Of a stretch of 64,000 bases of DNA, positions 23,337-53,263 are shown one piece after another. Numbering within the stretch: the first letter of the stretch is position 1; each line of letters opens with the position of its first letter. A program made the translations under genes and the position numbers. Below the pieces are notes generated by a model, which was given only the letters and a program-made list of their open reading frames with translations, was not told where the DNA came from and ran no database searches. The stretch comes from Bradyrhizobium sp. LHD-71 (GTDB lineage: Bacteria > Pseudomonadota > Alphaproteobacteria > Rhizobiales > Xanthobacteraceae): assembly GCF_031157255.1 (NCBI RefSeq), contig NZ_JAVIFX010000005.1, positions 124,001-188,000 of the forward strand, read 5' to 3'.

Positions 23337-23354
23337 GGGCGCCTCAGGCTTCCG

Positions 23355-24548: not shown

Positions 24549-24595
24549 GTCACTCCTCCCTAGTTTTTATCAATCTGAGTTGCAGTCACGGCACT

Positions 24596-29281: not shown

Positions 29282-29386
29282 GCAACACTCCCGATCGCGC
29301 CGCGACCACGTCGCGCGCGCTACATGTTCATGTCGTGAAGTCCCGAACGGACACCGGCCTCCGAACCGGCGCCCGCGGTTCGGCAG

Positions 29387-30547: not shown

Positions 30548-30593
30548 TACAACCTCCCCTGTCGAACGCGCCTCTTCGGGACGCTTTACGCTG

Positions 30594-32397: not shown

Positions 32398-32691
32398 ATG
32401 CAGGTCCGCACAGCAAAGGACATCGGCGCTTTCATACGGGATCGCCGGAAGAAGCAGAAACTCGATCAGGCCGAGCTTGCCGAGAAAGTGGGCGTCAATC
32501 GGCGATGGGTTCTGGAGGTCGAGCGCGGCAAGCCGCGAGCGGAGATCGGTCTTGTTCTTAAAACACTCAACGCACTGGGGCTGACCCTCAGCATCGAGAC
32601 CGACGCCATAAAGGATCACGCTGTCGGTCAAGAGGTCGAGATGATCGATATTGACGACGTGGTCGCTCGAGCCAAAAGGCCGAAGTCATGA
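32398..32691 (+). CDS. hipB: HipB-like antitoxin (Xre helix-turn-helix)
   Basis: About 97 residues with a central helix-turn-helix (IRDRRKKQKLDQAELAEKVGVNRRWVLEVERGKPR) followed by VLKTLNALGLTLSIE, the typical HipB layout, and a charged C-terminal tail. It would bind and inhibit the HipA kinase and repress the operon through the palindromes just upstream. The ATG at 32398 is preferred over an in-frame GTG at 32389 because GAAAGGG lies eight nt before it. It overlaps hipA by 4 nt. HipA is intact, so the pair may be functional despite surrounding decay. Confidence 0.9.
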   Translation: MQVRTAKDIGAFIRDRRKKQKLDQAELAEKVGVNRRWVLEVERGKPRAEIGLVLKTLNALGLTLSIETDAIKDHAVGQEVEMIDIDDVVARAKRPKS

Positions 32692-36124: not shown

Positions 36125-36125
36125 G

Positions 36126-37382: not shown

Positions 37383-37432
37383 CTGCATTTCCTCCATTTT
37401 GTTCCGGCTCGAAATCGCGGCCGGTTTGCTTG

Positions 37433-38506: not shown

Positions 38507-38507
38507 C

Positions 38508-39395
38508 TCAAACGCGCTCGATCTGCTCGCGGCCGAACAGCCCGTAGGGCCGCACCAGGAGCGTCATCAGAATGATCAGGGATGCGACGATGTCGCGGGT
38601 GCCGCCGCCGACCAGCGGGTCGACGATGCCGGTTGCGAGGCTCTCGCAGACGCCGACGATGACACCTGCGAGAAGCACGCCCGGAATGCTGTCGAGCCCA
38701 CCAAGGATGGCGATCGCGAGCGCCTTCATCAGCAGTAGCGACAAGCTCCAGTCGACCCCCTGGGTCGATCCCCATAAAATGCCGGCGGCCGTCGCGGTGC
38801 CGGCCGCAAGACCCCAGGCGATAGCGATCGCGCGCTCGACCCGGATGCCAACCGACCACGACGCCCCCTGATCGTCGGACACCGCACGCATTATGATACC
38901 GGCGCGCGAATTGAACAACACGATCGTCCCGACGATCAAGACGGCGGACGTGATACCGCCGATCAGGTAGGCGCGATTGATCAGCATCTCGCCGAGGAAC
39001 ATCGGCGCCTGTGGGATCCCGAGATCAAGCCGCTTCACCGCGACGCCGAAGAACCCAGGCATCATCCCGCGCAGAAAAATCTCCATGCCGAAGGTGACCA
39101 TGATGATCATAATGATCGGCTGGCCGACCATATGCCGCAGCACTGCGCGCTCGATCACGAAGCCGAGCCCGAACATCGTGACGAGCGCGAGGGGTATGGC
39201 CACCCACAGCGGCGCCCCCATCAACGTCGCAAACGCCCAGGCAACATAGCTCCCGGTCATCGCGATCGCACCCTGCGCGAAATTGGCAACGCTGGAGGTC
39301 TTGTAGACGAGCACAATGCCGACAGCGACGAGCGCATACATCAAGCCCACCAGCGCGCCGGTGATCGCCAGTTCACCGATCAGCCACAGATCCAT
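38508..39395 (-). CDS. livH: Branched-chain-type ABC permease (LivH-like, copy 2)
   Basis: The 295-residue permease shows LIGELAITGALVGLMYALVA, VYKTSSVANFAQGAIAMTG, the coupling region RAVSDDQGASWSVGIRVERA and LAIAILGGLDSIPGVLLAG. It forms the channel with LivM encoded downstream. Its start codon shares one base with the stop of the acyl-CoA ligase gene (TGATG). Confidence 0.92.
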   Translation of the reverse strand: MDLWLIGELAITGALVGLMYALVAVGIVLVYKTSSVANFAQGAIAMTGSYVAWAFATLMGAPLWVAIPLALVTMFGLGFVIERAVLRHMVGQPIIMIIMVTFGMEIFLRGMMPGFFGVAVKRLDLGIPQAPMFLGEMLINRAYLIGGITSAVLIVGTIVLFNSRAGIIMRAVSDDQGASWSVGIRVERAIAIAWGLAAGTATAAGILWGSTQGVDWSLSLLLMKALAIAILGGLDSIPGVLLAGVIVGVCESLATGIVDPLVGGGTRDIVASLIILMTLLVRPYGLFGREQIERV

Positions 39396-41344
39396 CAGCC
39401 GACCTCCCGGATCGACAGCGTGCGCCGGATCGTTCCGGTTTCGCCGCTCTCGTAGACGATACGTGCGTCCTGCTCGACCGTTCGCGCACCCGAATACAGC
39501 GCGTCGATCAGCGACGCGTAGCGCTCCTCGATCACGTTGCGGCGTAGCTTGCGCGTGCGGGTGATCTCGCCGTCATCCGCGTCGAAATCCTTGTGCAGGT
39601 TGACGAAGCGCCGGACGCGCAGATGTTGCGGCAGCAGCTCGTTGACATGCCGGAGCACCGAGGCGGTAAGATCGTAAACCTGCGGACGCTGTGAAAGCTC
39701 CGCATACGACGCGAACGAAATCCCCTCGTCCTCGGCCCAGTGCCCCACCGCCTCGTGGTCAATGCAGGCGATCGCACACAGACCGGCGCGACCGGCACCC
39801 AGCACCGCGACGTTGCGGATGTAGGGCGAGAACTTGATACGGTTCTCGATGTAGTTCGGGATATAGCGTTCGCCGGCGGCCGTATGCACGACCTCACTCA
39901 CGCGGCCGAGCACGACCAGATCGCCGCCATTCTCGAAGTAGCCGGCGTCTCCCGTGTGCAGCCAGCCGTCGGCGAGCGCCTTCCCGCTCGCCTCCGGATC
40001 ATCGAAATACCCGTCGATCACCGAACTCGACTTGATGAGGATCTCGCCTTTGTCGTCGATGCGAACCTCGACGCCCGGCAGCGGGTTGCCGATCGCATGG
40101 AGCGTCACGGCACCGTCGGCCTGCGCCGCCGTGAGGGCGCAGCTTTCGGTCTGCCCGTAGATCTGCCTGAGATTGACCCCGAGCGCGCGAAAGAACAGGA
40201 AGGTGTCTTCGCCAATCGCCTCGCCGCCCGTGAAGGCATGGCGGACGAGCGACACACCGAGATAGTCCTTCACGGGACCGAATACCAATATCTCTCCTGC
40301 AAACATCAGCAGGCGCTCAACGACACTCGGAGGCGTTCCGGCGAGGCGGCGACGTTCGATTTCGATGGCTCGCGGCACGAAGTATTTGAAGAGCGCGCGC
40401 TTTGCCCTGGTGGAATCCTCGATGCCGACCTGGACGCGCGTCAGCATGTTGTCCCAGGCGCGCGGGGCCGCCAGATACCAGGTCGGCGCGGCTTCGCGCA
40501 GGTCGCGCAGCACCGTCTCCTGTCGCTCCGGTATGTTGACGGTGAAGCGCAGCAGCACCGCGGCCGCAAGGCTGAACATGAAGTCCCCGACCCATGCGGC
40601 CGGCAGATAGGCGTAGTAGTCCTCGTGCTCGTCGATGACGCCGCCGGCGCGCGCGTTCAACACCCCGCCAATCACGTTGCGATGGCGCAGCGGCACACCT
40701 TTCGGCGCGCCCGTCGTTCCGGAGGAATGCATCAGCACCGCGATGTCTTCGGCGGTGGCGTGCGAGACCAGATCGGTCGCCAATGCCGGCTTGGCGGCCA
40801 GCAGCGCCCGCCCGCGCAAGAGCATCTCGTCATACGAGACGATGACATCGTCGGGGTAACCGGACAGGCCGCGCGGATCGTCGTAGACGATCCTGTGCGG
40901 GCGCCCCGTACGTTCGCGGAGCTCGAGCAGCTTGTCGACCTGCTCCTGATCCTCGGCGACCGCGATGCGAGGCTCGCCGTAGCGGGTATAGTGGGTCAGC
41001 TCCTCGGGCGGCACGTCCGGGAACACCGGCGAAGGGAACGCCCGCAGCGCAGTTGCGGCGATCATCGAAAGATAAAGACGCATGCGGTTATCGCCGATGA
41101 CCGTCAGCGCCTGCCCCGGCCCGAGCCCGATCGATTGGAACGCGGCGGCGAGCGCCAGCGTCTCGGCAAAGACTTCACGCCAGGTGCGCTCCTGCCAGAT
41201 GCCGTAATCACGCTCGCGAAAGGCCACGCGATCGGCGCTCTCGTGCGCGTTGCGTGCGAGAGCGGCAATCAGCGTCGCCGGCACGCCGTCCGGCCGCGTC
41301 GGCCAGGACGTGACAAACCGGACCGGCGGAACATGAGCATTCAT
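39395..41344 (-). CDS. Long-chain-type acyl-CoA ligase embedded in Liv operon (copy 2)
   Basis: The 649-residue adenylate-forming enzyme matches the ligase at 26544 in length and layout: P-loop HSSGTTGAPKGVPL, QIYGQTESCALT, GWLHTGDAGYFENGGDL, LGRVSEVVHTAAGERYIPNYIEN. In the last motif the catalytic-Lys region differs from its paralog, though RTRKLRRNVI near the C-terminus is shared. It should activate an imported acid to its CoA ester. It overlaps LivG by 4 nt and LivH by 1 nt, repeating the arrangement of module 2. Confidence 0.92.
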   Translation of the reverse strand: MNAHVPPVRFVTSWPTRPDGVPATLIAALARNAHESADRVAFRERDYGIWQERTWREVFAETLALAAAFQSIGLGPGQALTVIGDNRMRLYLSMIAATALRAFPSPVFPDVPPEELTHYTRYGEPRIAVAEDQEQVDKLLELRERTGRPHRIVYDDPRGLSGYPDDVIVSYDEMLLRGRALLAAKPALATDLVSHATAEDIAVLMHSSGTTGAPKGVPLRHRNVIGGVLNARAGGVIDEHEDYYAYLPAAWVGDFMFSLAAAVLLRFTVNIPERQETVLRDLREAAPTWYLAAPRAWDNMLTRVQVGIEDSTRAKRALFKYFVPRAIEIERRRLAGTPPSVVERLLMFAGEILVFGPVKDYLGVSLVRHAFTGGEAIGEDTFLFFRALGVNLRQIYGQTESCALTAAQADGAVTLHAIGNPLPGVEVRIDDKGEILIKSSSVIDGYFDDPEASGKALADGWLHTGDAGYFENGGDLVVLGRVSEVVHTAAGERYIPNYIENRIKFSPYIRNVAVLGAGRAGLCAIACIDHEAVGHWAEDEGISFASYAELSQRPQVYDLTASVLRHVNELLPQHLRVRRFVNLHKDFDADDGEITRTRKLRRNVIEERYASLIDALYSGARTVEQDARIVYESGETGTIRRTLSIREVG

Positions 41345-42156
41345 GCGGCGGCTCCGACGTGGCGTTTGGCGGCGCGTTCGCCAAGGTAGGCCTGGATCAC
41401 GCGCGGTTCGGAGATCGCCTCGAGCGGCTTGCCCTGCGCGATATTCTCGCCGTAACTCAGCACCATCACGCGATCGCAGATCGAGGTCACCACGTCCATG
41501 TGGTGCTCGATCATCAGCACGGTCGTGTTGCGCTCCTCGCGCGCATCGAGGATGAAACGGGCGATGTATTCCTTCTCTTCCTTGTTCATCCCGGCCATCG
41601 GCTCATCCAGGATGAGCAGACGCGGATCGGCCGCTAGCGCGCGCGCAAGCTCCACGCGCTTCTGAAGGCCGAGAGGAATGACCTCGACCGGCTCGTCGCG
41701 GATATCCTGAAGCTGCATGAAGTCGATCAGTTCCTCGACCGCGCGGCGATGCGCTACTTCGTGCCGCGCCGCCCAGACCCAGTAGAACAGCGTTGCGAGC
41801 GCGCCTGAGCCAACACCCATATGGACGTGACGGCCGAGCAGGATGTTGTCGAGCACGGTCATGCCGCGGAACAAGGCCAGATTCTGGAACGTGCGCGCCA
41901 CACCATGCGCCGCGATGCGATGCGGCCGCATGCGGGTGGTATCGGCGCCGAAGATGGCGACACTGCCTCTCTGCGGGCGATAGAAGCCGGTCACGACATT
42001 GACGAGGCTGGTCTTGCCACTTCCATTCGGACCGACCAGCCCGAAGATCTCGCCCGGCATGATGTCGAAGCTCAGGCCTTTGAGGGCGCGCAGCCCACCG
42101 AACGACAATTCGATGTCGCGGCATTCGAGCACGGCGCTGGCTGAGCCTTCTGTCAT
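41341..42156 (-). CDS. livG: Branched-chain-type ABC transporter ATPase (LivG-like, copy 2)
   Basis: The 271-residue ATPase has Walker A GPNGSGKTS, ARTFQNLALFRGMTVLDNIL, degenerate signature IPLGLQKRVELARAL, Walker B LLILDEPMAGMNKEEK and H-loop LMIEHHMDVV. It is paired with the LivF at 35336. It starts 4 nt after the carboxyltransferase gene and overlaps the ligase by 4 nt, so carboxylase and transporter genes are transcribed together. Confidence 0.92.
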   Translation of the reverse strand: MTEGSASAVLECRDIELSFGGLRALKGLSFDIMPGEIFGLVGPNGSGKTSLVNVVTGFYRPQRGSVAIFGADTTRMRPHRIAAHGVARTFQNLALFRGMTVLDNILLGRHVHMGVGSGALATLFYWVWAARHEVAHRRAVEELIDFMQLQDIRDEPVEVIPLGLQKRVELARALAADPRLLILDEPMAGMNKEEKEYIARFILDAREERNTTVLMIEHHMDVVTSICDRVMVLSYGENIAQGKPLEAISEPRVIQAYLGERAAKRHVGAAA

Positions 42157-42160: not shown

Positions 42161-43768
42161 TCACATCCGGAACACGCCGTAGTGGGGTCGATCGATCGGT
42201 GCGTTCAGCGCCGCCGAAATCGCGATGCCTAGCGCGTTGCGCGTATCGACCGGGTCCAGGATACCGTCATCCCACATCTCGGACGTCGAATAGTACGCGC
42301 TCTGCTGGCGTCTGTATTCCTGAAGAATCGGCTCGCGGATCTCGTCGATTTCATCGTTCGACAACATCCGTCCCTCCCGCGAAAGCTGCCGCACCTTGAT
42401 ATCGGCGAGCACATTTGCCGCCTGCTCGGCGCCCATCACGGAAATCTGGCTCTGCGGCCACATGAACAGAAAGCGCGGGTCGAAAGCCCGGCCGGACATG
42501 CCGTAGTTGCCGGCACCGAACGAGCCGTTGCAGATGACGGTGATCTTCGGCACTTCGCTTCCCGATACGGCCATGATCATCTTGGCCCCGTCCTTGGTGA
42601 TGCCGCGGTGCTCGTAGTCGCGACCAACCATGTAACCGGTGATGTTCTGCAGAAACAGCATCGGGACCTGGTGTTGGTTACAGAGCTGCATGAAATGCGC
42701 GCCCTTGAGCGAGGAATCGTTGAACAGCACGCCGTTGTTGGCGAGGATTCCGACCTTGAACCCCCACAGATGCGCGAAGCCGCAGACGAGTGTCGTCCCG
42801 TAGGCCGGCTGATATTCATGGAAACGGCTGCCGTCGACAAGGCGCGCAATAATCTCCCGCGCGTCGAATTGCGTCTTGATGTCGCGCGGGATCAGGCCGT
42901 AGAGTTCTTCCGGATCGTAATAGGGCGGCTCGGGATTGGTGCGCTGCACGTCAAACTTCGACGGAAGCCCAAACTGGGCGACGATCTCGCGGGCGATCGC
43001 GATTGCCTGTTCTTCAGAGACGGCGGGATAATCCGCGGTGCCGGAAATGCGCGTGTGGGTGTCGGCCCCTCCGAGCTCCTCCACGCCGACGATCTCACCG
43101 GTGGCGGCCTTCACCAGCGGCGGTCCACCGAGGAAGATCGCGCCGGTGCCGCGCACGATCACGTTGTATTCGGACAGCGCCGGCACGTAAGCGCCGCCGG
43201 CCGTGCAGTGTCCGAGAACGAGGGCGACCTGTGGCACGCCCAGCTTCGAAAGGATCGCCTGGTTGCGGAAGATGCGGCCCGCCAAATACCGATCCGCGAA
43301 CAGGTCCGCCTGCAGCGGCAGGAAACCGCCGGCGCTGTCGCAGAGATGGACCACCGGCAGTCGGTTCTCGATCGCGATGTCGAGCGTGCGCACAATCTTC
43401 TTGACCGAATGCGGGTACCACGCTCCGCCCTTCACGCTCGCGTCGTCGGCATGGATGATCACTTCACGGCCGCTGACGATGCCGATGCCGGACACGATGC
43501 CCGCTCCCGGCACCTCGCCGTCGTAGGACTGGTTCGCCGCCAGCGTCGACAGCTCGAGGAACGGCGTGCCGGGATCGAGCAGCATCTCGATGCGGTCGCG
43601 AACGAACATCTTGTTCTGCCGCTTCAGCCGTTCGATATCACGCGCAGGACGCTCGCGACGCGCCGCGCTCTGACGCGCCTTGAGGTTTGCGGCGAGCTTG
43701 CGGTTGTGGGCGCTGTTGGCCCCAAACTCTTCCGAACCGGTATCAAGGCGGCTTTCGATGCGGCGCAT
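42161..43768 (-). CDS. Acyl-CoA carboxylase carboxyltransferase subunit (copy 2)
   Basis: The 535-residue carboxyltransferase has both halves: STLAANQSYDGEVPGAGIVSG, LCDSAGGFLPLQADLF, CTAGGAYVPALSEYN, then ANNGVLFNDSSLKGAHF, FLQNITGYMVGRDYEH and CNGSFGAGNYGMSGRAF. It is closest in layout to the methylcrotonyl/geranyl-CoA carboxylase beta group, like the protein at 19687. It works with the separate BCCP and BC proteins encoded just upstream (1-nt gap to BCCP). The N-terminal ~20 residues before NSAHNRKLAANL vary from relatives, so the start is slightly uncertain. Confidence 0.92.
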   Translation of the reverse strand: MRRIESRLDTGSEEFGANSAHNRKLAANLKARQSAARRERPARDIERLKRQNKMFVRDRIEMLLDPGTPFLELSTLAANQSYDGEVPGAGIVSGIGIVSGREVIIHADDASVKGGAWYPHSVKKIVRTLDIAIENRLPVVHLCDSAGGFLPLQADLFADRYLAGRIFRNQAILSKLGVPQVALVLGHCTAGGAYVPALSEYNVIVRGTGAIFLGGPPLVKAATGEIVGVEELGGADTHTRISGTADYPAVSEEQAIAIAREIVAQFGLPSKFDVQRTNPEPPYYDPEELYGLIPRDIKTQFDAREIIARLVDGSRFHEYQPAYGTTLVCGFAHLWGFKVGILANNGVLFNDSSLKGAHFMQLCNQHQVPMLFLQNITGYMVGRDYEHRGITKDGAKMIMAVSGSEVPKITVICNGSFGAGNYGMSGRAFDPRFLFMWPQSQISVMGAEQAANVLADIKVRQLSREGRMLSNDEIDEIREPILQEYRRQQSAYYSTSEMWDDGILDPVDTRNALGIAISAALNAPIDRPHYGVFRM

Positions 43769-43769
43769 G

Positions 43770-44234
43770 TTACGCCTCCACCGTGGCGAGCGTGGCTAGC
43801 GTGGCGAGCGGCGCGGAGCGATCGAAAGACTGGCCCATCGCGACGTGCACGGTGTCGATCCGGCCATCGCGTGGCGCCTTTACGGAGGTCTCGAGCTTCA
43901 TGCTCTCGATCACCAGCAATGTGTCGCCGCGCGCGACGGCCTCGCCCGCTTTCACCATCACCGTGACGACGGTGCCGGGCATCGGCGCCAAGATGGTGTC
44001 ATCGGTCGAGCCGTCGGCATGGCTGCCGTAGTAGGCAACCGGCTCGTGATAGCGGAACGTCTGCGCCTCACCGTCGAGCCAGACATGGATCGTATCGCCG
44101 TCGACCGCGACGATCGCGTCGTGATCATTCGTGATGCGGTAGCTGCAGTCGTCAACATGGACTCGGTAGGCGTCGGCCTCGCGCTGCGCGAAAACGCGAT
44201 ATTCCGTACCGTCGATCGAAAAAATGGCGCGCAT
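43770..44234 (-). CDS. Stand-alone biotin carboxyl carrier protein
   Basis: The 154-residue protein consists of an N-terminal beta-rich segment of about 75 residues, resembling the linker/BT region of acyl-CoA carboxylase alpha subunits (YRVHVDDCSYRI, HVWLDGEAQTFRY). A biotinyl domain follows (ILAPMPGTVVTVMVKAGEAV, ESMKLE with biotin on Lys113). In most such enzymes this is fused to BC; here it is a separate gene whose ATG shares one base with the BC stop (TGATG). It ends in a short ATL repeat before VEA. It would carry CO2 from the BC at 44234 to the CT at 42161. Confidence 0.92.
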   Translation of the reverse strand: MRAIFSIDGTEYRVFAQREADAYRVHVDDCSYRITNDHDAIVAVDGDTIHVWLDGEAQTFRYHEPVAYYGSHADGSTDDTILAPMPGTVVTVMVKAGEAVARGDTLLVIESMKLETSVKAPRDGRIDTVHVAMGQSFDRSAPLATLATLATVEA

Positions 44235-45739
44235 CAGTTTCGCCAGCCTCCCATCGCGTTGTGCGGCTGCGGGCCATCATCGGCGGCATCGCGGACGGGA
44301 CGGACCGAGAGTGCGCCGATCGCGAGCATCCGCCGCAGCGTCGCGGCAGAAACCGGCTCGGAGGCGATCTCGGGATGAGCATCAAGAAAACCGGTGTGGA
44401 TATCGCCCTCGCGAAACGCCGGATGCGCAACCAGGCGATGCAGGAAACTGACGTTGGTTTCGCAGCCGAGCAGCACGAACTGCTGAAGCGCCGACAACGC
44501 TCGCTGGCGTGCCTCTTCGCGATCCTTACCATGCACGATCAGCTTCGCGAGCATCGGATCAAAGGCGGTCGTGATCGCCTGGCCCTCGGTCACTCCAATA
44601 TCGAGCCGCAGACCAGGGCCACGGCCATCATGGATTTTCAACGCGCGGCCGGTGGTCGGCGCGAAACCCCGCGCCGGGCTTTCCGCATAGATGCGGCATT
44701 CGATGGCGTGACCCTGCGTCGCAATATCGGCCTGCGTGAAACCAAGCGGCTCATTTGCCGCAACCCGAAGCTGCTCCCGCACGAGATCGATGCCGGTAAC
44801 CATCTCGGTGACCGGATGCTCGACTTGCAGCCGTGTGTTCATTTCGAGAAAATAGAACTCGCCGGCCCCATAGATGAACTCAACCGTACCGGCATTGCGA
44901 TAGCCTGCCGCGCGCGCGATGCCTGCAGCCGTCTCGCAGATACGAGCACGCTCCGATGCCGACATTGCCGGCGACGGCGTTTCCTCGATGATCTTCTGAA
45001 AGCGCCGTTGCACAGAGCACTCACGCTCGAACAGATGCACGACATTGCCGTGGGCATCGCCCAACACCTGCACCTCGATATGACGCGGGTTTTCGATGTA
45101 GCGCTCGACATAGAGCCGGCCGTCACCGAAATAGCGCTGCCCTTCGCTTCGTGCGCGGACAATCTCTTCCGCAAGCACTGAGGCATCGCGCACGATGTGC
45201 ATGCCCTTGCCGCCTCCGCCGGCAGACGGCTTGATCAACAGCGGAAAGCCGACCGCCCTGGCGCGCTCGGTGAATGTCATCGGATCATCGTCCTCGATCG
45301 CCGACGGGGCAACCGGGAAGCCGTGCTTCTGCACAAACGCGCGCGCGCGCACCTTGTCACCCATCAGTTCGATCACTTCCGGTGTCGGACCGATGAAGGT
45401 GAGACCCGCGTCCGCGACCGCACGCGCAAATGCAGCGTTCTCCGAGAGAAAACCGTAGCCGGGATGGATGACGCCGGCGCCTGCTGCCCGCGCCGCGGCA
45501 ATGATCTGCGGGCCATCGAGATAGGCCGCCACCGGTGTCGCGCCCTTGATTTCGATCGCCTTGCTTGCGGCGCGTACCGCCGGCGCGTCGGAATCGACCG
45601 CGTGATGGATCACGACCGCCTTCAGATCCAGCGCCTCCACCGTCTTCAGGATGCGCAGCGCGATCTCGCCGCGGTTTGCGATCAGCACAGTATCGAACGG
45701 CCAGCCCGCAGCCGATATATGGCGTTGCGGCGCCGTCAT
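44234..45739 (-). CDS. Stand-alone biotin carboxylase subunit
   Basis: About 501 residues comprising only biotin carboxylase: VLIANRGEIALRIL, GYGFLSENAAFA, ATP-grasp GGGGKGM, HIEVQVLGD, EMNTRLQVEHPVTEMVTG and the C-terminal lid region. The protein ends without a biotinyl domain, which is supplied by the next gene. It uses ATP and bicarbonate to carboxylate biotin. The frame extends to 46039 inside the TetR gene; the ATG at 45739 overlaps the TetR stop as ATGA and starts the family's usual N-terminus after a 17-residue lead. Confidence 0.92.
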   Translation of the reverse strand: MTAPQRHISAAGWPFDTVLIANRGEIALRILKTVEALDLKAVVIHHAVDSDAPAVRAASKAIEIKGATPVAAYLDGPQIIAAARAAGAGVIHPGYGFLSENAAFARAVADAGLTFIGPTPEVIELMGDKVRARAFVQKHGFPVAPSAIEDDDPMTFTERARAVGFPLLIKPSAGGGGKGMHIVRDASVLAEEIVRARSEGQRYFGDGRLYVERYIENPRHIEVQVLGDAHGNVVHLFERECSVQRRFQKIIEETPSPAMSASERARICETAAGIARAAGYRNAGTVEFIYGAGEFYFLEMNTRLQVEHPVTEMVTGIDLVREQLRVAANEPLGFTQADIATQGHAIECRIYAESPARGFAPTTGRALKIHDGRGPGLRLDIGVTEGQAITTAFDPMLAKLIVHGKDREEARQRALSALQQFVLLGCETNVSFLHRLVAHPAFREGDIHTGFLDAHPEIASEPVSAATLRRMLAIGALSVRPVRDAADDGPQPHNAMGGWRN

Positions 45740-46353
45740 GTGCGCTTCCGACGGCCGCGCAAGGCGAGCCCGTTCACCAGCACGTCCGTCATTGCGCGTG
45801 CCACACGCGGCACGTCGACCGGCTTGCTGCCGTTGATGTGACGCCACGAGGTATGCTCGATCGCACCGAAGAGCATGTCGCGGACGAGCCGTGGGTCCAT
45901 GCCGGCGACGACCTCGCCGTCCGCAATCCCCTGATCCACGATCTTCAGCAGGATCGAGGTGTAGCGCCGATTGAGCTGCTGAATCGCCGAGCCGCGGTAA
46001 TCGCTTGCGGTACGGACTTCGGAGATGAACAGGCGGCACAGATCGCGATCGGCGATGAACACATGCAGATGCTCGCTGATGAGAACGTAGAGTCGGTCGG
46101 CGAATGTCCGGCCTTTTGCGATCTTCGGCTCGAGATCGGCAATGATGCGCTCATAGAAGCGCTCGAGCACTGTCTCGAGCAGATCCCGCTTGTTCTCGAA
46201 ATACTTGTAGATCAGCCCGTCGGAGATGTCGGCGGCGCGGGCGATGTCGGTGATCGAAGCGGTGGAGTAGCCGTTTTCGGCGAACACCCGCGTGGCCGCG
46301 GCGAGGATCGCGTCATAGCGGTCGCGCATGCGCTGCGGGCTGATCGCAGGCAT
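45736..46353 (-). CDS. TetR-family regulator of module 3
   Basis: The 205-residue protein has a TetR helix-turn-helix (ILAAATRVFAENGYSTASITDIARAADISDGLIYKYF, residues 16-52) and a helical ligand-binding domain (FISEVRTASDYRGSAIQQLNRRY, MLFGAIEHTSWRHING). It leads the minus-strand operon and diverges from the acyl-CoA dehydrogenase gene at 46533. An inverted repeat between them suggests that it controls both directions, in the manner of AtuR or LiuR-type regulators of isoprenoid-acid catabolism. The ligand is probably an acyl-CoA. Confidence 0.92.
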   Translation of the reverse strand: MPAISPQRMRDRYDAILAAATRVFAENGYSTASITDIARAADISDGLIYKYFENKRDLLETVLERFYERIIADLEPKIAKGRTFADRLYVLISEHLHVFIADRDLCRLFISEVRTASDYRGSAIQQLNRRYTSILLKIVDQGIADGEVVAGMDPRLVRDMLFGAIEHTSWRHINGSKPVDVPRVARAMTDVLVNGLALRGRRKRT

Positions 46354-46457
46354 CAGGCGACTTCGAATTCACGACGGCGAAATGCCCACGCGACCATAAG
46401 CTGGTGTTCCCTCCATGATCGGGGTGGGATTCGATCCTCCCCCTCTTGATTAGCCAT

Positions 46458-46486
46458 AATGAATACGCTTCATTTTGGTTTGTCAA
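46458..46486 (-). promoter_or_regulatory. Module 3 promoter with AATGAA palindrome
   Basis: On the minus strand TTGACA (46481-46486) lies 17 bp from TTCATT (46458-46463), the best promoter for the TetR operon. The palindrome AATGAA/TTCATT (46458-46463 and 46469-46474, 5-nt centre) lies in the spacer and -10 box, as expected for a TetR operator. The divergent dehydrogenase gene probably shares this site. Confidence 0.55.
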
Positions 46487-46532
46487 CGCGATGGCCGCTT
46501 GAAGCAGCCGCGAGACCACAGGGAGGACGTCG

Positions 46533-47738
46533 ATGATGGTTGATCAACTGCAGCTGAACTCATTGGCCTCGCACGGTTTTCGCCTATCCGCCGCCCAGCA
46601 AGAGATTCTCGACACGGCAGACCGGTTCGCCGCGGGCGAGCTTTACCCGCTGCAGAAAAGAATGGACGACGAAGAGTGGTGGCCGCCGCAGACGATGCCG
46701 GCGCTGGCGCGCATGGGCTTTCTCGGGGTCACGGTTCCGACCGAGCTCGGCGGCCTGGACGCCGACTTCTTCACGTCGGGTCTAATCACACAAGGACTTG
46801 CACGCTGGAATCCGGCGGTCGCGCTGAGCTACGTGGCCCACGAGAACCTGTGCCTAAACAACATCGCACGTAACGGTTCGGATGCGGTGCGCCGGCGCTA
46901 TCTGCCAAAGCTCTGCAGCGGCAAGGCAATCGGCGCGCTCGGTTTGACCGAACCGGGCGCCGGCTCCGATGCGCTCGGCTCAATGGCAACCACCGCGCGG
47001 CGGGACGGCGATGACTACGTGCTCAACGGCCGCAAGCTCTTCATCACCAACGGACCGGTGGCCGACGTCCTGCTCGTCTACGCCAAGACCGACAAGCAGA
47101 AAGGCCCAAAAGGCATCTCGGCTTTTGTGATCGAGAAGGGTTTTCCCGGATTCCAGATCGCTCAGAAGCTCGACAAGATGGGCTTTCGCGGCAGCACGAC
47201 GGCCGAACTCGTGTTCGATGATTGCCGCGTGCCCGCCGACAACCGCGTCGGCGAGGAGAACGCGGGCGTCGCCGTCGTGATGAGCGGGCTCGACCTCGAA
47301 CGCGCTATCGTCGCGATGATCAATCTCGGCATGGCCGAACGTGCGTTCGCACTTGCCCTCGACTATGCAAAGGCGCGCAAGCAATTCGGCAAGCTCATCG
47401 GCGAGTTTCAGCTCGTCCAGGCCAAGCTTGCCGACATGTATACGACGATCGAGACGATGCGCACCTATTGCTATCGCACCCTCGCCGAAGCAAACGACCT
47501 CGAGATCGGCAGCGGAGGTCGCGGCAACATTCACATGCTCACCGCATCCTGCATACTTTATGCGGCGGAAGGTTGCACGCGCGTGATCGGCGATGCCGTG
47601 CAGATTTTCGGCGGCGCCGGATATATGCGCGAGTCCGAGATCAACCGGCTCTACCGCGCGACAAAGCTTCTGGAAATCGGCGCCGGAACGACGGAGATTC
47701 GCAAACTGATCATCGGCGGTGAATTGATGCGTGATTGA
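46533..47738 (+). CDS. Isovaleryl-type acyl-CoA dehydrogenase
   Basis: The 401-residue flavoenzyme has LTEPGAGSD (139-146), GRKLFITNG, GFRGSTTAELVFDDCRVP, MSGLDLERAIVA, KARKQFGKLIGEFQLVQAKLADMYT and IFGGAGYMRESEINRLYR. The Glu of DLERA (Glu256) sits where isovaleryl-CoA dehydrogenase has its catalytic base, while the usual C-terminal site reads IGAGTTEI with Ala, as in that subgroup. It should oxidise a 3-methyl-branched acyl-CoA (isovaleryl-, citronellyl- or similar) to the 2-enoyl-CoA, giving the substrate for a carboxylase. GGGAGG precedes the ATG by six nt. It is divergent from TetR and ends 1 nt before the convergent SDR gene. Confidence 0.92.
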   Translation: MMVDQLQLNSLASHGFRLSAAQQEILDTADRFAAGELYPLQKRMDDEEWWPPQTMPALARMGFLGVTVPTELGGLDADFFTSGLITQGLARWNPAVALSYVAHENLCLNNIARNGSDAVRRRYLPKLCSGKAIGALGLTEPGAGSDALGSMATTARRDGDDYVLNGRKLFITNGPVADVLLVYAKTDKQKGPKGISAFVIEKGFPGFQIAQKLDKMGFRGSTTAELVFDDCRVPADNRVGEENAGVAVVMSGLDLERAIVAMINLGMAERAFALALDYAKARKQFGKLIGEFQLVQAKLADMYTTIETMRTYCYRTLAEANDLEIGSGGRGNIHMLTASCILYAAEGCTRVIGDAVQIFGGAGYMRESEINRLYRATKLLEIGAGTTEIRKLIIGGELMRD

Positions 47739-48584
47739 TCATTCGGAGAACCAGGTGGGCCGCGGAATGGTCCACTGGTCGCCCCAGACCTGATTGCCGC
47801 CGTCAACCGTCACGACCTCGCCCGTCATGAAGGCACCGGAGGGGCCTGCGAGATAGCAGACCGCGTTTGCGATGTCGCAGACGTCGCCAAAGCGCTTCAT
47901 GAGGTTCGTCCTCGGCATGTCGCGGCGGGCCTCTTCAGGATAGACCTCCATTCCCTCGGTCGAGATGATGCCCGGCGCCACGCAGTTGACCCGGATGCCG
48001 AGCGGCGCCCATTCGATGGCGACCGTCTTTGACCCATAGATGACGCCGGCGCGTGCCGCACAAGTGTGCGCGACGCCTGGCATGCCGCGACTGACGACGG
48101 CGACGATATTCACGATCGCGCCTCCACGCTTCGCGTCACGCCAGCGGCGCGCCGCCTGTTGCATCATGTACCAGGTGCCGTTCAAGTTGGTGTCGATGAC
48201 CGCATTCCAGCCTTTCGGCGAGAAGTCGATCGCGGCTTGCGGGAACTGCCCGCCGGCGTTGTTCACGACGACATCCAGCGTGCCGAAAGTCTCCCATACG
48301 GTATCATAAAGTCGTGCCACCGCGTCCGGATCGCGGATCGACATCGGCCGGACAAGCACATCGGCGCCCAACGCGCGCAGCTTGCCGGCAGTCTCGTTCA
48401 GCCGTCCTTCATCTCGACCGCACAGTGCGACCTTCGCACCGAGGCGCGCGAAGTGAAACGCGATCGCCTTGCCGATGCCACGTCCGGCACCGGAAACGAG
48501 GGCGACCTGCCCCTCGAACAAGCCATCGCGAAACGTCAGAGGCATCGTGGCAAGTTCATCGTCACTGCGGCCAAACTGAGTCAT
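47739..48584 (-). CDS. SDR-family oxidoreductase lacking the YxxxK pair
   Basis: The 281-residue Rossmann protein has the cofactor motif SGAGRGIGKA, DVVVNNAGG and the C-terminal GEVVTVDGG of classical short-chain dehydrogenases. In the active-site helix, however, the aligned sequence is TCAARAGV, so both the catalytic Tyr and Lys are replaced. This resembles 2,4-dienoyl-CoA reductase-type SDRs, which lack the standard Tyr. A role as dienoyl- or hydroxyacyl-CoA reductase in isoprenoid-acid oxidation (compare AtuB/AtuG) is inference. It is last in the minus-strand set and overlaps the MaoC gene by 4 nt. Confidence 0.85.
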   Translation of the reverse strand: MTQFGRSDDELATMPLTFRDGLFEGQVALVSGAGRGIGKAIAFHFARLGAKVALCGRDEGRLNETAGKLRALGADVLVRPMSIRDPDAVARLYDTVWETFGTLDVVVNNAGGQFPQAAIDFSPKGWNAVIDTNLNGTWYMMQQAARRWRDAKRGGAIVNIVAVVSRGMPGVAHTCAARAGVIYGSKTVAIEWAPLGIRVNCVAPGIISTEGMEVYPEEARRDMPRTNLMKRFGDVCDIANAVCYLAGPSGAFMTGEVVTVDGGNQVWGDQWTIPRPTWFSE

Positions 48585-49027
48585 GTCCGTCCTTTCGTCC
48601 GCACAAGCACGTTTGCGACGCCGGTCTGCACATTCTCGTCGCGCTGGTTGCGGACGTCGAGCTGCAGCGTGACGACACCTCGGTCGGGCCTTCTGGTCGG
48701 CCTCTTCTCCAGCACGGTCACCAGCGCCGCTATGGTATCGCCCGGCCGCACCGGCTTCATGAACTTCCAGGAAATGTCGAGCAGACCAAGCACCGTGCCA
48801 TCCATCAGACCCGCGCGCGAGGCGAGGCCAAACGTCATTCCGACGACCATCGGCCCATGGGTGATGCGGCCACCGAAATCGCTCTCCTGCGCGAATACTT
48901 CATCCATATGCAGCGGGTTGAAATCGGCCGTGAGCCCGGCGAACGTGGAGATATCTGCGTCGACGACAGTGCGACGCGGCGTGTCGAAGTGCTGCCCGAC
49001 CTCGAACTCCTCGTAGTGGCGCCCCAT
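48581..49027 (-). CDS. MaoC-family (R)-enoyl-CoA hydratase
   Basis: The 148-residue hot-dog protein holds a full hydratase-2 motif: FAGLTADFNPLHMDEVFA, with the catalytic Asp and His at about residues 35 and 40, and FGGRITHGPMVVGM. It hydrates 2-enoyl-CoAs to (R)-3-hydroxyacyl-CoAs. Unlike the MaoC protein at 17249, it keeps the catalytic Asp. Its ATG shares one base with the stop of the ligase gene upstream, and it overlaps the SDR gene by 4 nt. Confidence 0.9.
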   Translation of the reverse strand: MGRHYEEFEVGQHFDTPRRTVVDADISTFAGLTADFNPLHMDEVFAQESDFGGRITHGPMVVGMTFGLASRAGLMDGTVLGLLDISWKFMKPVRPGDTIAALVTVLEKRPTRRPDRGVVTLQLDVRNQRDENVQTGVANVLVRTKGRT

Positions 49028-50661
49028 CAGGTGTCCTTCCGCTCGGTGCGCGTCTTGCGCGCACGCAGATCGAACATGCCCGACAGCGCCCGCGGATCGG
49101 CCCCGCCGGGGAAAATCTGGTGCTTCTGGATCTTCTGCGTGCCGGTCGTAGGTAGCGTGTCGGTGAAATAGATCCAGCCCGGCGCCTTGAAGTAGGCAAG
49201 CTGCGCGTAGCAGTGACGGAACAGCACGTCGGCTTTCGCCTCACGCTCCCGGTCGTCATGCAACACGACGCATGCCAGCACTTCCTCTTCCCGCGTCTCG
49301 TCCGGGACGGCGAGCACCGCGACCTGCTTCACGGCTGCATGCGCCTGCAACGTGGCCTCGACCTCGGCGGCGGCAATGTTTTCACCGGAGCGGCGGATGA
49401 TGTTCTTCTTGCGATCGACAAAATGCAACATGCCGTCGGGATCCTGCTGCACGGTGTCGCCGGTGTGAAACCAGTTGCCACGCCAGGCGTGCGCAGTCGC
49501 GGCCTCGTCCTTCAAGTATCCCGAATAGAAGCCGCGCCGCGGCGTTTCGACTGAATGGCGCAGGACCATCTCTCCAGGCACACCGCGCGGTACGTCGTTG
49601 TCGTTTTCATCGACGACGCGCACCTCTATCCCCGGCACCGGACGGCCGAAGGCCCGAGTTCCGACCTGGCGCGGCGGCTGGTTGTCGAACAGTAGCCGCA
49701 CCATCTCGGTCATGCCCCACACTTCGATGAGCGGAAAGCCGAAGCGCTGCTCGAACGTGGCGTGAAGCTGCGGCTCGACACCCGCGCCGATGGCGAAACG
49801 CACCGCGTGCCCACGCTCTTCCTCGCCTGCCAGTCGCCCGAGCAGCAGCGGAACGATCACGCCGAGATAATGCACAACCGTCGCGGCCGTCTCTTTCACC
49901 TCGCTCCACCAGCGATTGGGATGAAACCGGTCCGGCTGAATCTGGCAGCTCCCGTTCAGCATCGCACCGTAAAACGAGACGACCGCGGAATTGCAGTGGT
50001 AGACTGGCAGTGGATTGTAGATGCGGTCTCCCTCGGGCCGGAACGTCGCGAGCCCGCCGCCGTTGGCATACCAGGCCCCCGAAGCAAGTTCATAACCGTG
50101 CGACAGCATGCAGCCCTTCGGGCGCCCTGTCGTGCCCGACGTGTAGAGGATGCTTGCCTCACTTTCCGCCGTGATAGGACGATTCCCGGCGCTGGTGCGC
50201 GCAGGCGGAAGCGCCGAACCGTCATCGAACACGACGATCGGCGGGCGATGCGCGCTCACATTCATTCCGGCTTCAAGCTGCTCGCGCCGCTCAGGCGCGG
50301 CGAGCGCTAATACGGGCTCCGAATGCTCCAGCAGATAAGCGATCTCGTTCGCACGGTAGTCCGGGTTGATCGGCACTGCGGACACACCGAGGCTGTTGAG
50401 TGCCAGCTTGTGCAGGAAGTATTCGGGCCGATTGTCGAGCAACACGGCCACACGATGTCCGGGCCCGAATCCGGCGGAGCGATAGCGTGCAACCAGCGCG
50501 CTCACTTCGCGCCCTGCCTGCGCAAATGAGATCTCGTAGCCGTTCTGGTGATAGGGCCGATGCGCACCTTTGGGCACCGCCAGGAACGGACGCGCTCCAT
50601 ACGCCTGCTGGGCGGCCGCGAACGCCTCGCCAATCGTCGTGCTGTCGTCGATTTCAATCAT
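49027..50661 (-). CDS. CaiC-like acyl-CoA synthetase
   Basis: The 544-residue adenylate-forming enzyme has P-loop YTSGTTGRPKGCM, EVWGMTEMVRLLFD, GNWFHTGDTVQQD, DRKKNIIRRSGENIAAAEVE and the catalytic Lys near TTGTQKIQKH. It is about 100 residues shorter than the two ligases in the Liv operons and resembles crotonobetaine/carnitine or medium-chain ligases. It would activate an acid made or imported by module 3, a role comparable to AtuH. It overlaps the AtuA-like gene by 4 nt. Confidence 0.9.
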   Translation of the reverse strand: MIEIDDSTTIGEAFAAAQQAYGARPFLAVPKGAHRPYHQNGYEISFAQAGREVSALVARYRSAGFGPGHRVAVLLDNRPEYFLHKLALNSLGVSAVPINPDYRANEIAYLLEHSEPVLALAAPERREQLEAGMNVSAHRPPIVVFDDGSALPPARTSAGNRPITAESEASILYTSGTTGRPKGCMLSHGYELASGAWYANGGGLATFRPEGDRIYNPLPVYHCNSAVVSFYGAMLNGSCQIQPDRFHPNRWWSEVKETAATVVHYLGVIVPLLLGRLAGEEERGHAVRFAIGAGVEPQLHATFEQRFGFPLIEVWGMTEMVRLLFDNQPPRQVGTRAFGRPVPGIEVRVVDENDNDVPRGVPGEMVLRHSVETPRRGFYSGYLKDEAATAHAWRGNWFHTGDTVQQDPDGMLHFVDRKKNIIRRSGENIAAAEVEATLQAHAAVKQVAVLAVPDETREEEVLACVVLHDDREREAKADVLFRHCYAQLAYFKAPGWIYFTDTLPTTGTQKIQKHQIFPGGADPRALSGMFDLRARKTRTERKDT

Positions 50662-52445
50662 CGGGTAGCCATCATTAGCTGATCGGCAAGCGTTCGCGGA
50701 ATGGCGATGGGGAAATCCATCAGCATCTGCGCGAAAGCCTTGCCTTGGGGATCGATGCGCAGCGATGCGACACCGCCACCGCCGAGCGCGTCGTGCAGGA
50801 CGAAATTGAGCGCATTCATGCCCGGCAGATCGTAGCGGTCGACACGCGTTACACCGGTCTGAGCGAAGAAGGCTGCTACGGCCTCCGGGGTTAGCGCGGC
50901 GCGCAACCAGGGCATATATTCCGTGCGTCGTGCAAGTATCCCGATGTTTGCAGTATTGCCTTTGTCGCCACTACGGCCCACGGCGAGCGCGATCAGCGGC
51001 GCGCTGGCATCGGCTACCTCTGCCGGCGCACTTTGGTACGGCTCGTCGGCGCTGGGCGAAAGCCGTGCCGACGCCGCAAAGGGCACCTCGAACTCCCCGC
51101 CGCAGATCGCAACACGCGGTGTCAGGCTCGCCTTCGGCCACAGGAACGAGAACAACCGCATGACCGGCTGCACGGCCGGCCGGCCGGCGAAGAACCCGGT
51201 GAGCCCTTGCGCCATCGAAGACGCTGCCGGTGCGATCTCGCGCGCGAGAATTTCGAGCGCTTTCTCGCTCGCGTGCCGTGCGCCGATCTTCAGCACGACC
51301 TCGCGGGCTGCGCTGCTTTGGGCTGCGGCGCCATACACCGCTTCGGTGCCGAGCACCTCCAGCGAGGTTTCGGTAAAATCGCCTAGCCCGCGCTCGGCGA
51401 GCAGACGTCGCACGCGAGCGAGGATCGCCTCGCCCGCGTGCTGCGCCTTCGGCCCAGCATCGCGTCCCGCAATCGTCACGGTGCCGATCGTGCGAAAGCC
51501 GTCATGCCACGTCGCGCTGACTTTCAGCTCGGCCGTCGGTGGCCGACCACGCGCCCCGCTGACGCTTACGCGGTTTGCTCCGTCCGCAACGATGGTTACC
51601 GCGCGGAAATCGCACACGACATCCGGCAGCACATAGGCCACGGGATCTCCGATCTCGTAGAGCATCTGCTCACCGACGGATAGCGGCGAAACGAGACCGC
51701 CGGTCCCCTCCGCTTTGGTGATCGTGAAGGTCCCGTCCGCGGCACAGTCGGCGATCGGCAAGCCCATGTCGTCCCAGCCGGGTACGTCACGCCAGTCCGT
51801 GAACAATCCTCCGGTCACCTGCGCGGAGCATTCGATCAGGTGTCCGGCCAGACTTGCCTGCGCAAGCTTGTCGTAGTCGCTCCACGACCAGCCAAAGGCG
51901 TGCACAAGCGCGCCGAGCGTCACCGCCGAATCGACACAACGGCCGGTGATCACCACATCTGCGCCGCGGTCGAGCGCGGCCGCGATCGGCTGCGCGCCGA
52001 AATAAGCGTTTGCGCTCAAGAGCCTTTCCGGCAGCGCTGCGCCGCTGAACATCTCGCGCGCGTCCGCCGCACGGATCGTGTCGATCTGTGCCATCACGTC
52101 GTCGCCGGTGACGACGGCGATCTTGAGTGGGACGCCGACCGCCTCAGCGCGTTTCGCCAACGCTGCCGCGCAGGCGACAGGATTGACACCACCCGCGTTC
52201 GAGACGACGCGAATGCCGCGCCGTCTGATCTCCGGCAGCAACGGGGCGACCATCTCGACGAAATCGGGAACGTAGCCAAGCTCCGCCTTGCGCGCACGGA
52301 CGCGCGCGAGCAGCGACATTGTGACCTCGGCGAGATAGTCGAACACAAGGAAGTCAATCTCACCGCGCATCACAAGCTGGCCTGCGCCTTCGAGGCTGTC
52401 ACCCCAAAAGCCAGCGGCACCGCCGATGCGGATGGTCTTTGCCAT
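50658..52445 (-). CDS. atuA: AtuA-family protein (DUF1446)
   Basis: About 595 residues. Residues 1-360 form the DUF1446/AtuA core (IRIGGAAGFWGDS, SNAGGVNPVACA, VVITGRCVDSAVTLGAL, HLIECSAQVTGGLFTDW), and the C-terminal ~110 residues (LIALAVGRSGDKGNTANIGIL, ALGGGGVASLRID) form the AtuA-like ferredoxin-fold domain. AtuA is required for growth on citronellol/geraniol in pseudomonads, but its reaction is not known. Together with the branched acyl-CoA dehydrogenase, hydratases, ligase and carboxylase it points to acyclic isoprenoid-acid degradation. Two ATGs overlap the hydratase stop (52448 and 52445); the second is used. The frame upstream belongs to the hydratase. Confidence 0.88.
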   Translation of the reverse strand: MAKTIRIGGAAGFWGDSLEGAGQLVMRGEIDFLVFDYLAEVTMSLLARVRARKAELGYVPDFVEMVAPLLPEIRRRGIRVVSNAGGVNPVACAAALAKRAEAVGVPLKIAVVTGDDVMAQIDTIRAADAREMFSGAALPERLLSANAYFGAQPIAAALDRGADVVITGRCVDSAVTLGALVHAFGWSWSDYDKLAQASLAGHLIECSAQVTGGLFTDWRDVPGWDDMGLPIADCAADGTFTITKAEGTGGLVSPLSVGEQMLYEIGDPVAYVLPDVVCDFRAVTIVADGANRVSVSGARGRPPTAELKVSATWHDGFRTIGTVTIAGRDAGPKAQHAGEAILARVRRLLAERGLGDFTETSLEVLGTEAVYGAAAQSSAAREVVLKIGARHASEKALEILAREIAPAASSMAQGLTGFFAGRPAVQPVMRLFSFLWPKASLTPRVAICGGEFEVPFAASARLSPSADEPYQSAPAEVADASAPLIALAVGRSGDKGNTANIGILARRTEYMPWLRAALTPEAVAAFFAQTGVTRVDRYDLPGMNALNFVLHDALGGGGVASLRIDPQGKAFAQMLMDFPIAIPRTLADQLMMATR

Positions 52446-53263
52446 CATCGCCCCGTCCAAACCGGCGCGCGCTTCTCGTTGAAGGCGCGAAATCCCTCGC
52501 GCGCATCCTCGGTTTGAGCCATCTGCGGCAGCACGCGCTGCGCATACTCGAGGCACACGCCTAGCGGCAGCGCGTCCATCGTCGCGAGCGCGCGCCGTCC
52601 GATCCGGATCGCGGTCGGCGAGCTTGCCGCGATCGACGCAACGAGCTGCTCCACTTTCTCGTCGAGCTTCTCGGCGGAGACAACGTGATTGACGACGCCG
52701 TGCGCCAGCGCTTCCGCGGCCGTAATCGGCTCACCCGTCACACAAATCTCCAGAACCTTGCGCCGTGAGATGGTTCGCAGCAGCCATGGCAAGATCATCA
52801 TCGGGAACAACCCGATCCGCGACTCCGGCGTGCCGAACCTCGCATTGTCGACGGCCACAGCGAAATCGCATGCGCAGACAAGGCCAAAGCCACCGGCCAG
52901 CGCGTGCCCGTTGACGCGTGCAATCACTGGAACCGGGCAATCGACGATGGCGCGAAAGAGTTCGACGACCGGATTGTCCACCTCTGCAGGATCGACACGA
53001 AACGGATCGCCCTTCGCGTCCGGCTTGAGGTCGCCGCCGGCGCAGAACGTTCGACCGGCTCCGGTGATGACGACCGCTCGAACGCCGTCCTCGATGCGAG
53101 CGCTGGCAACGCTCTCGCGCAGACCGCGCAACACCGATTCGTTCAGCGCATTGCGCCGTTGCTCGCGGTCAATCGTAAGCCACATCGCGGCGCCGCGATG
53201 CTCCTGGTGTACCTCCTGCACGGCCGACCTCCCATATTGAGTCGGATTCATTTTGAGCCACAT
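52445..53263 (-). CDS. Enoyl-CoA hydratase/isomerase
   Basis: The 272-residue crotonase has AGRTFCAGGDL (oxyanion-hole loop), NGHALAGGFGLVCACDFAVA, and the active-site region FGTPESRIGLFPMMILPWLL, where one Glu of the usual Glu pair is seen. It hydrates or isomerises an enoyl-CoA; AtuE- or LiuC-like glutaconyl-CoA hydration is the contextual guess. It is the first gene of the minus-strand set ending at 47739. The start is uncertain: ATG at 53263 or 53251, neither with a strong ribosome-binding site. Confidence 0.88.
   Translation of the reverse strand: MWLKMNPTQYGRSAVQEVHQEHRGAAMWLTIDREQRRNALNESVLRGLRESVASARIEDGVRAVVITGAGRTFCAGGDLKPDAKGDPFRVDPAEVDNPVVELFRAIVDCPVPVIARVNGHALAGGFGLVCACDFAVAVDNARFGTPESRIGLFPMMILPWLLRTISRRKVLEICVTGEPITAAEALAHGVVNHVVSAEKLDEKVEQLVASIAASSPTAIRIGRRALATMDALPLGVCLEYAQRVLPQMAQTEDAREGFRAFNEKRAPVWTGR

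Follow-up and report, generated by a model that had tools for sequence, protein, structure and literature searches.

The question raised by a 64,000-nucleotide stretch of DNA from Bradyrhizobium sp. LHD-71 (contig NZ_JAVIFX010000005.1, positions 124,001 to 188,000; hereafter the window) is which acids are degraded by a gene set, here called module 3 (42161-53263), that resembles the Atu pathway, and which of its enzymes could perform the final carbon-carbon cleavage. A sequence-only reading had recognized counterparts of most Atu genes, had proposed a variant for 3-methyl-branched acids and had looked for the lyase outside the module; it proved right in kind and wrong about the lyase. Every gene that it named was present as an open reading frame with a strong family match, and the arrangement is not due to chance, because the same gene set recurred in 19 examined loci besides the window. 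The explanation that we favor, and consider likely, is a regulon for the degradation of beta-methyl-branched, probably isoprenoid, carboxylic acids larger than isovalerate. Because ordinary beta-oxidation stops at a beta-methyl branch, whether bacteria can mineralize terpenoid acids depends on the removal of such branches. For this, the Atu cluster of the Pseudomonas type, with geranyl-CoA carboxylase (GCC), is the known route, and a second type of carboxylase with a regulatory site of its own would allow the trait to be predicted in alphaproteobacteria without AtuC/AtuF.

The carboxyltransferase (CT; 42161..43768, minus strand) scored highest against PDB entries of 3-methylcrotonyl-CoA carboxylase (MCC; human beta subunit, 615 bits; Pseudomonas, 614 bits), followed by Pseudomonas GCC (443 bits), and the first propionyl-CoA carboxylase (PCC)-type entry ranked below GCC reached 272 bits. 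Two entries that are propionyl/acetyl enzymes by name (9tps and 4q0g) scored among the MCC entries. With at most 272 bits to the PCC-type entries below GCC versus 615 to MCC, PCC identity was rejected, and with it the one grouping of the CT that the sequence-only reading had held to speak against its own proposal. In a maximum-likelihood tree, from which the L016 rows and L077_1626 were left out, 19 different CTs of the split type, in which the carboxylase subunits are separate genes, formed a single clade (support, 100/100) outside both MCC (82/78) and GCC (99/98). The split clade joined GCC at 94/83 and the outgroup was very long, so that a sister relation to GCC is tentative.

The residue at the gate of the CT pocket pointed in the same direction as the tree. 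The part of the study by Jurado et al. drawn on here (PMC4673880) reports, from mutation of MCC and GCC, that the gate residue governs substrate size and that Phe191 of MCC blocks a larger substrate; it describes GCC as having Gly at the gate without the three residues that precede it, and proposes these features as annotation guides. In gate positions hand-counted from printed alignments, the window CT had Ala at the position of Phe191 in MCC and Gly162 in GCC and kept the MCC-type three-residue insert. All 20 split-type CTs of loci found through AtuA had an open gate (Ala in 6, Gly in 14), whereas Phe was present in 11/11 MCC-type CTs (three PDB entries, from human, Pseudomonas and a mycobacterium; the MCC on contig 18 of the host; module 2 of the window; and six second CTs of related loci). 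Among GCC-type CTs from loci with AtuA, 12 had Gly and one (L073) had Ala, and all had the deletion; the distant CT of L086 had Ser, and the L127 CT also had Phe. The pocket of the split-type CTs is thus predicted to be roomier than that of MCC, and the open-gate signature offers a simple means to separate large-substrate carboxylases from those annotated as MCC or PCC.

As the sequence-only reading had stated, a three-subunit carboxylase takes the place of the AtuC/AtuF pair. The biotin carrier protein (BCCP; 43770..44234, minus strand; 154 amino acids with an ESMKLE site; PF00364, E 6e-17) was separate from and adjoining the CT in 34/34 loci, and the biotin carboxylase (BC; 44234..45697, minus strand; PF00289, PF02786 and PF02785) was free-standing without a biotin domain; its 5' end is approximate because the long BC frame reaches into the regulator gene upstream. 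Residues 8-149 of the BCCP aligned to residues 533-674 of the fused subunit of module 2 (E 1.6e-19), its N-terminal half resembling the segment that precedes the biotin domain in a fused alpha subunit, and the BC aligned to residues 11-494 of the fused MccA of the host; therefore, the cut falls just past the BC domain. The part of Lombard and Moreira (PMC3199775) cited here describes the alpha subunits of MCC and GCC as BC/BCCP fusions and an archaeal acetyl/propionyl-CoA carboxylase as three-subunit. MCC identity was rejected on account of Ala or Gly in place of Phe191 and the position of the CT outside the MCC clade, and GCC identity on account of the Ala gate, the retained insert and the separate BC and BCCP genes. 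As judged from sequence, the carboxylase is neither PCC, MCC nor GCC, and its CT falls in a third gamma-carboxylase clade.

The sequence-only reading had found no lyase for the final cleavage in module 3, a view contradicted by AtuA (50658..52448, minus strand; PF07287, E 4.6e-146, and PF23544, E 8.2e-29, both above cut-offs). A profile of 54 AtuA proteins had a single convincing relative in the PDB, 9erq/9evf (E 3.4e-8; next, E 0.24), named AtuA family protein/citramalate lyase subunit A. The AlphaFold model of the window AtuA (mean predicted local distance difference test score [pLDDT], 91.7) matched chain A of 9evf, a complex of citramalate lyase with ADP and pyruvate, with a Foldseek E value of 2.5e-24, and over residues 2-450 gave a VIA-align Z score of 32.7 (420 residues aligned; root mean square deviation [rmsd], 3.4); the next entry (Z 9.4) spanned one small domain. 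When the C-terminal domain (residues 470-596) was modeled alone (pLDDT, 89.1), its first match was chain B of 9evf (Foldseek E 1.6e-4; Z 10.5; rmsd, 2.9; 100/105 residues; next entry, Z 8.2). Since the two parts match chains A and B, the window AtuA, as modeled, appears to be a fusion by fold of the two citramalate lyase chains. In many of the loci L080, L081 and L094-L112, AtuA matches lay on two frames (about 460 and 120 amino acids), like the two citramalate lyase chains. Residues common to 9erq and invariant in the 54 AtuA proteins, matched by eye with positions hand-counted from the printed alignment, were R170, D173, A175, E206, C207, Y264, E265, P269 and K309.

These models make AtuA the best candidate for the lyase, so that the cleavage enzyme would be present within the module. 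An acetate-releasing cleavage of 3-hydroxy-3-alkylglutaryl-CoA by AtuA is plausible because this compound and citramalate share the unit C(OH)-CH2-COO, and the fold match thus offers a concrete reaction for a protein whose function was described as speculated. A role for ATP or ADP may be suggested, the sole hint being the ADP in the 9evf crystal. In the portion of a 2025 review used here, which draws partly on unpublished data, an AtuA-like pair, ThnQ/ThnS, is stated to cleave a tertiary-hydroxy acyl-CoA (PMC12016498).

The host carries two more full-length AtuA genes and one distant relative. The two other loci (L006:5568-15788 and L007:7295-13280) placed AtuA beside an enoyl-CoA hydratase (ECH), an acyl-CoA dehydrogenase (ACAD) and a CoA-transferase III, with no CT or BC match in the 19 kb fetched, and their substrates look as if a second carboxyl group were already present. 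In a tree of AtuA, in which some rows were labeled from a nearby split BC or from a split CT found at another place in the same genome, 20 of 21 split-type rows fell in a clade of 23 (98/98) that also held L006, L031 and L032; AtuA is therefore not strictly tied to carboxylase type.

The scan for AtuA relatives yielded 27 loci, mostly alphaproteobacterial, plus two from gammaproteobacterial metagenome-assembled genomes (MAGs), and the recurring gene set was split CT, BCCP, BC, AtuA and ECH together. Not all loci are independent: L119 and L030 share a contig, and L009/L011 and L015/L016 are near-copies. In order to avoid selection by AtuA, 385 genomes of the class were searched with the CT alone. 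Orthologues (67-79% identity, at least 820 bits) were separated by a clean gap from ordinary MCCs (at most 56%, at most 664 bits), and 15 orthologue matches were found in 14 other genomes; 14 loci were freshly fetched, the fifteenth (G057) being L055, a locus obtained earlier, which has a Gly gate. Both the Ala gate and the adjacent BCCP were found in 14/14 of these loci, BC lay inside the fetched stretch in 11/14, and an ACAD of at least 46% identity was present in 9/14. Genome-wide, AtuA of at least 53% identity occurred in 14/14 of the other split-CT genomes. Any AtuA match was found in 44 of 190 sampled genomes, and matches of at least 540 bits in about 27 (counted by eye, host included; two of the 27 cover only part of the length); with three candidates scored per genome in the CT search and six in the AtuA search, failure to match does not prove that a genome lacks the gene. 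The naive probability of the co-occurrence of AtuA and split CT is small, although just 8 genera are represented among the 14 genomes. AtuA and CT shared a neighborhood in G057, G317 and G413, AtuA lying in the last two just past the fetched stretch on the same contig.

A palindrome recurs at the module promoters. An exact match to the pattern, AATGAATACGCTTCATT, lies at 46458..46474 between the genes for the TetR-family regulator and ACAD, as in related loci, and is proposed as an operator; a weaker copy (10/12 core positions) lies at 53236..53252 at the start of the ECH-AtuA operon, the same place as in L009, L010, L011, L012 and others. Promoters were taken as the 250 bases before module gene starts, a site was defined as at least 10 of 12 core matches, and 100 Markov runs on the same stretches gave the expected number. 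The promoters of 46 split-type loci held 31 sites in 43,384 bases (Markov mean, 1.06; largest run, 4), compared to 10 sites in 802,418 bases outside promoters; at 11 or more matches there were 17 sites in promoters and none in the other 802,418 bases. The promoters of 32 loci not used for motif discovery, some of which share genomes with discovery loci, held 12 sites (mean, 0.82; largest run, 5), whereas there were no sites in the promoters of 58 other AtuA loci (mean, 1.31). In three genomes of one genus (G169, G042 and G306), AtuA-short-chain dehydrogenase/reductase (SDR) genes and carboxylase genes lay on separate contigs with the palindrome at both, 34-35 bases before AtuA, which supports one regulon in these genomes. 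With up to 3 mismatches allowed, neither the gap between TetR and ACAD nor the start of ECH had an AtuR-type 13-bp inverted repeat; at this setting the whole window had 38 matches versus 29 expected. The palindrome may resemble the Bacillus FadR/YsiA box. A tandem-TetR protein with two DNA-binding domains (L021:2603-4162) lay beside a Roseobacter-type split module from which the palindrome was absent.

The following pathway is proposed. The acid would be imported via the Liv importer and activated by two acyl-CoA synthetases, and an isovaleryl-CoA dehydrogenase (IVD)-like dehydrogenase would desaturate it to a 3-methyl-2-enoyl-CoA. The three-subunit, open-pocket carboxylase would then add CO2 at the gamma carbon of substrates larger than 3-methylcrotonyl-CoA, ECH would hydrate the product to 3-hydroxy-3-alkylglutaryl-CoA, and AtuA may cleave this to a 3-oxoacyl-CoA and acetate, with ordinary thiolysis of the former afterwards. 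The TetR protein, probably acyl-CoA sensing, may bind the palindrome at the operon starts. The order of these reactions is inferred, as is the class of substrate. Among the neighboring genes, part of which were checked by Pfam, no common upstream oxidation gene pointing to the substrate emerged, and neighbors varied between loci. A broader proposal, advanced tentatively and given slightly less than an even chance, is that the split enzyme represents a third gamma-carbon carboxylase family, three-subunit and open-pocketed, which together with a fused AtuA lyase would form an alphaproteobacterial regulon removing beta-methyl groups from isoprenoid or terpenoid acids, and that the AtuA family overall would consist of acetate-releasing, possibly nucleotide-dependent lyases of tertiary 3-hydroxy acids.

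Several observations weigh against the favored explanation. AtuA was also found next to CoA-transferases without a carboxylase, and many other AtuA loci of the class showed no carboxylase in the fetched DNA; AtuA alone therefore does not prove the pathway, and its use as a marker of the carboxylase pathway was rejected. AtuA was found in 0/14 of the CT-seeded loci within the 17-19 kb fetched, three of these (L117, L118 and L120, one genus) were without a nearby BC, and in 8/14 genomes the best AtuA lay elsewhere at 53-58% identity, with no tie to the CT by neighborhood or palindrome. Near the start of the best AtuA, no palindrome was found in G186, G366, G300, G286 and G335, and those in G082 and G237 (9/12) and G330 (10/12) were each 310 bases away. 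The promoter palindrome was present in only 20 of the 46 split-type loci, and most Roseobacter-type loci were without it. Over whole loci, the excess was modest, with 41 sites in the 46 loci versus 18.0 expected by a dinucleotide model (58 other loci: 10 versus 20.7). An initial base-shuffle count had given 40 sites versus 4.8 in split-type loci and 11 versus 8.8 in the others, L016 being grouped with the others in this count and with the split set in the dinucleotide count; by hand count, 34 of the 40 sites were at module gene starts and 6 elsewhere. Because the dinucleotide model raises the whole-locus expectation, the promoter-position test was relied on. Finally, the case as a whole is built from sequences and structural models.

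The closest matches of the module could also be taken to mean a redundant leucine/isovalerate pathway, with an unusual 3-methylcrotonyl-CoA carboxylase and AtuA cleaving 3-hydroxy-3-methylglutaryl-CoA (HMG-CoA). The highest raw CT score is to MCC and ACAD is closest to isovaleryl-CoA dehydrogenase, points that count for this pathway and against larger substrates. However, the Phe typical of MCC was replaced by Ala or Gly in every examined split-type CT, and the F191G variant of MCC is described in the cited part of PMC4673880 as essentially inactive on 3-methylcrotonyl-CoA. Moreover, contig 18 of the host already encodes a Phe-gate CT next to a fused alpha subunit, the window has a second Phe-gate module, and ten of the 14 other split-CT genomes also contain a CT that is MCC-like by identity (53-55%). 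A redundant leucine route is thus quite improbable. The proposal of the sequence-only reading that an Atu-like pathway relies on the CitE-like lyase at 16405 while AtuA has another function fares worse still and is scarcely credible. The CitE-like protein Rv2498c is reported, in the part of PMC6689899 drawn on, to be a beta-hydroxyacyl-CoA lyase of leucine breakdown, but the window CitE is part of module 2, which has a MaoC, a fused BC-BCCP and a Phe-gate CT of its own; L130 and L131 show the same order, and the DNA fetched for them contained no AtuA. AtuA itself has a lyase fold, as modeled, in both parts.

A more serious rival keeps the same enzymology and changes the substrate to an alicyclic or other non-isoprenoid branched acid, the open pocket accommodating a ring or bulky group instead of a prenyl tail. 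In the degradation of naphthalene, ThnQ/ThnS are reported in the cited part of the review, partly from unpublished data, to cleave a cyclohexane ring where it carries a tertiary hydroxyl (PMC12016498); the split module of Tritonibacter horizontis has in its vicinity an HMG-CoA lyase and a gene that matches cyclohexanecarboxyl-CoA dehydrogenase at 522 bits, less than the cut-off (575); and L053 has two monooxygenase-like genes near AtuA. Such ring-related neighbors vary between genomes, however, and none was seen beside the window module, whereas a 3-methyl acyl chain directly fits IVD-like desaturation followed by gamma-carboxylation. An alicyclic substrate therefore seems unlikely, though it deserves more weight than either of the other alternatives, and degradation of beta-methyl-branched, probably isoprenoid, acids is preferred.

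Apart from ACAD, the genes of module 3 and of the adjoining importer lie in two minus-strand runs. The run from 53263 to 47739 comprises ECH, AtuA, an acyl-CoA synthetase, MaoC and SDR, and that from 46353 to 35336 comprises TetR, BC, BCCP, CT, LivG, a second acyl-CoA synthetase, LivH, LivM, a binding protein and LivF; the IVD-like ACAD (46533..47738, plus strand), whose top five PDB matches were isovaleryl-CoA dehydrogenases (330-367 bits), is oriented opposite to both flanking runs. ECH (52445..53263; crotonase family; PF00378, E 5.6e-59) likely starts at the GTG at 53221 behind GGGAGG; its score against AtuE (4zu2) was 117.5 bits, with 21 other crotonases above AtuE. The 632-amino-acid AtuA frame (50658-52556) is too long; AtuA starts at the ATG at 52448, within an ATGA that also contains the ECH stop codon. 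The acyl-CoA synthetase (AMP-binding; 49027..50661; PF00501, E 1.2e-63) is followed by a MaoC-like hydratase (48581..49027; PF01575, E 3.9e-25), which is rare in split-type loci (besides the window, a match was listed in L121 only), and by an SDR oxidoreductase (47739..48584; PF13561, E 2.6e-53). The TetR-family regulator (45736..46353; PF00440, PF17932 and PF08359) has YsiA-like C-terminal domain matches. The ABC importer that the sequence-only reading had assigned to module 3 exists, but together with the second synthetase it is located at 35336-42156, immediately outside the interval 42161-53263. It consists of a LivG-like ABC ATPase (41341..42156; PF00005 and PF12399) and LivH, LivM, the binding protein and LivF of a branched-chain-type importer (35336..39395; PF02653 twice, PF13458 and PF00005), with the second acyl-CoA synthetase (39395..41344; PF00501, E 5.4e-58; FadD11 model below cut-off) within the transporter operon. 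The ligand is not readable from the binding protein, the closest solved structure of which (4ru0) has a putative family name only. The genome assembly of the host comprises 82 contigs and 7.48 Mb.

Module 2 of the window (16405-31235) comprises CitE, a MaoC with a mesaconyl-CoA-hydratase match, the fused BC-BCCP, the Phe-gate CT, a Liv importer with a synthetase, ACAD and TetR. It is conserved (CT identity, 81-85%) in two genomes in which the split module is likewise present, and Phreatobacter and a Hyphomonadaceae MAG have it too. The CitE-like protein at 16405 was rejected as a module 3 lyase, since it belongs to this separate module, the order of which is conserved in two other genomes. A RES/Xre toxin-antitoxin-like pair (14932-16073) and a HipA-like gene (32688-34001) flank module 2. 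Module 2 resembles the mycobacterial leucine route with Rv2498c (PMC6689899). The Tritonibacter horizontis contig (L127-L129) holds three gamma-carboxylase modules, one of them split, within about 33 kb, an island that also has a thiolase. Large- and small-pocket carboxylases acting in series, like Atu followed by Liu, are a suggestion that would explain this co-location.

Compared to known systems, AtuA resembles citramalate lyase (9erq/9evf) in the fold of both parts and in GR..D.A, EC, YE..DP and a Lys that are common, by eye, to the 54 AtuA proteins, but it differs in having 18% identity, one fused protein versus two chains and a different expected substrate; likeness in fold does not establish that the substrate is the same. 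The carboxylase is like MCC in top raw CT similarity and in the three-residue insert, and unlike it in the Ala or Gly gate and in an alpha subunit split into BC and BCCP. It is like GCC (AtuC/AtuF), the CT type of some other AtuA loci, in its small gate residue and gamma-carboxylase lineage, and unlike it in clade, in keeping the insert and in lacking the BC-BCCP fusion. With the Atu pathway of Pseudomonas and Thauera, as described in the parts of PMC4847356 and PMC9973270 consulted, the module shares AtuA, an acyl-CoA dehydrogenase, a gamma-carboxylase, a hydratase, an SDR, an acyl-CoA synthetase and a TetR regulator; it differs in its three-subunit carboxylase, the CT of which belongs to a clade of its own and retains the MCC-type insert, in a palindrome unlike the 13-bp AtuR sites, and in the linked Liv importer and second synthetase. 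No paper describing a split gamma-carboxylase with AtuA was recognized among the top-ranked titles and abstracts of the open-license literature, which is a weak absence but agrees with the suggestion of the sequence-only reading that the variant may be undescribed. Module 3 thus represents an apparently undescribed variant of the Atu pathway that is set apart by its carboxylase and occurs in a range of alphaproteobacteria.

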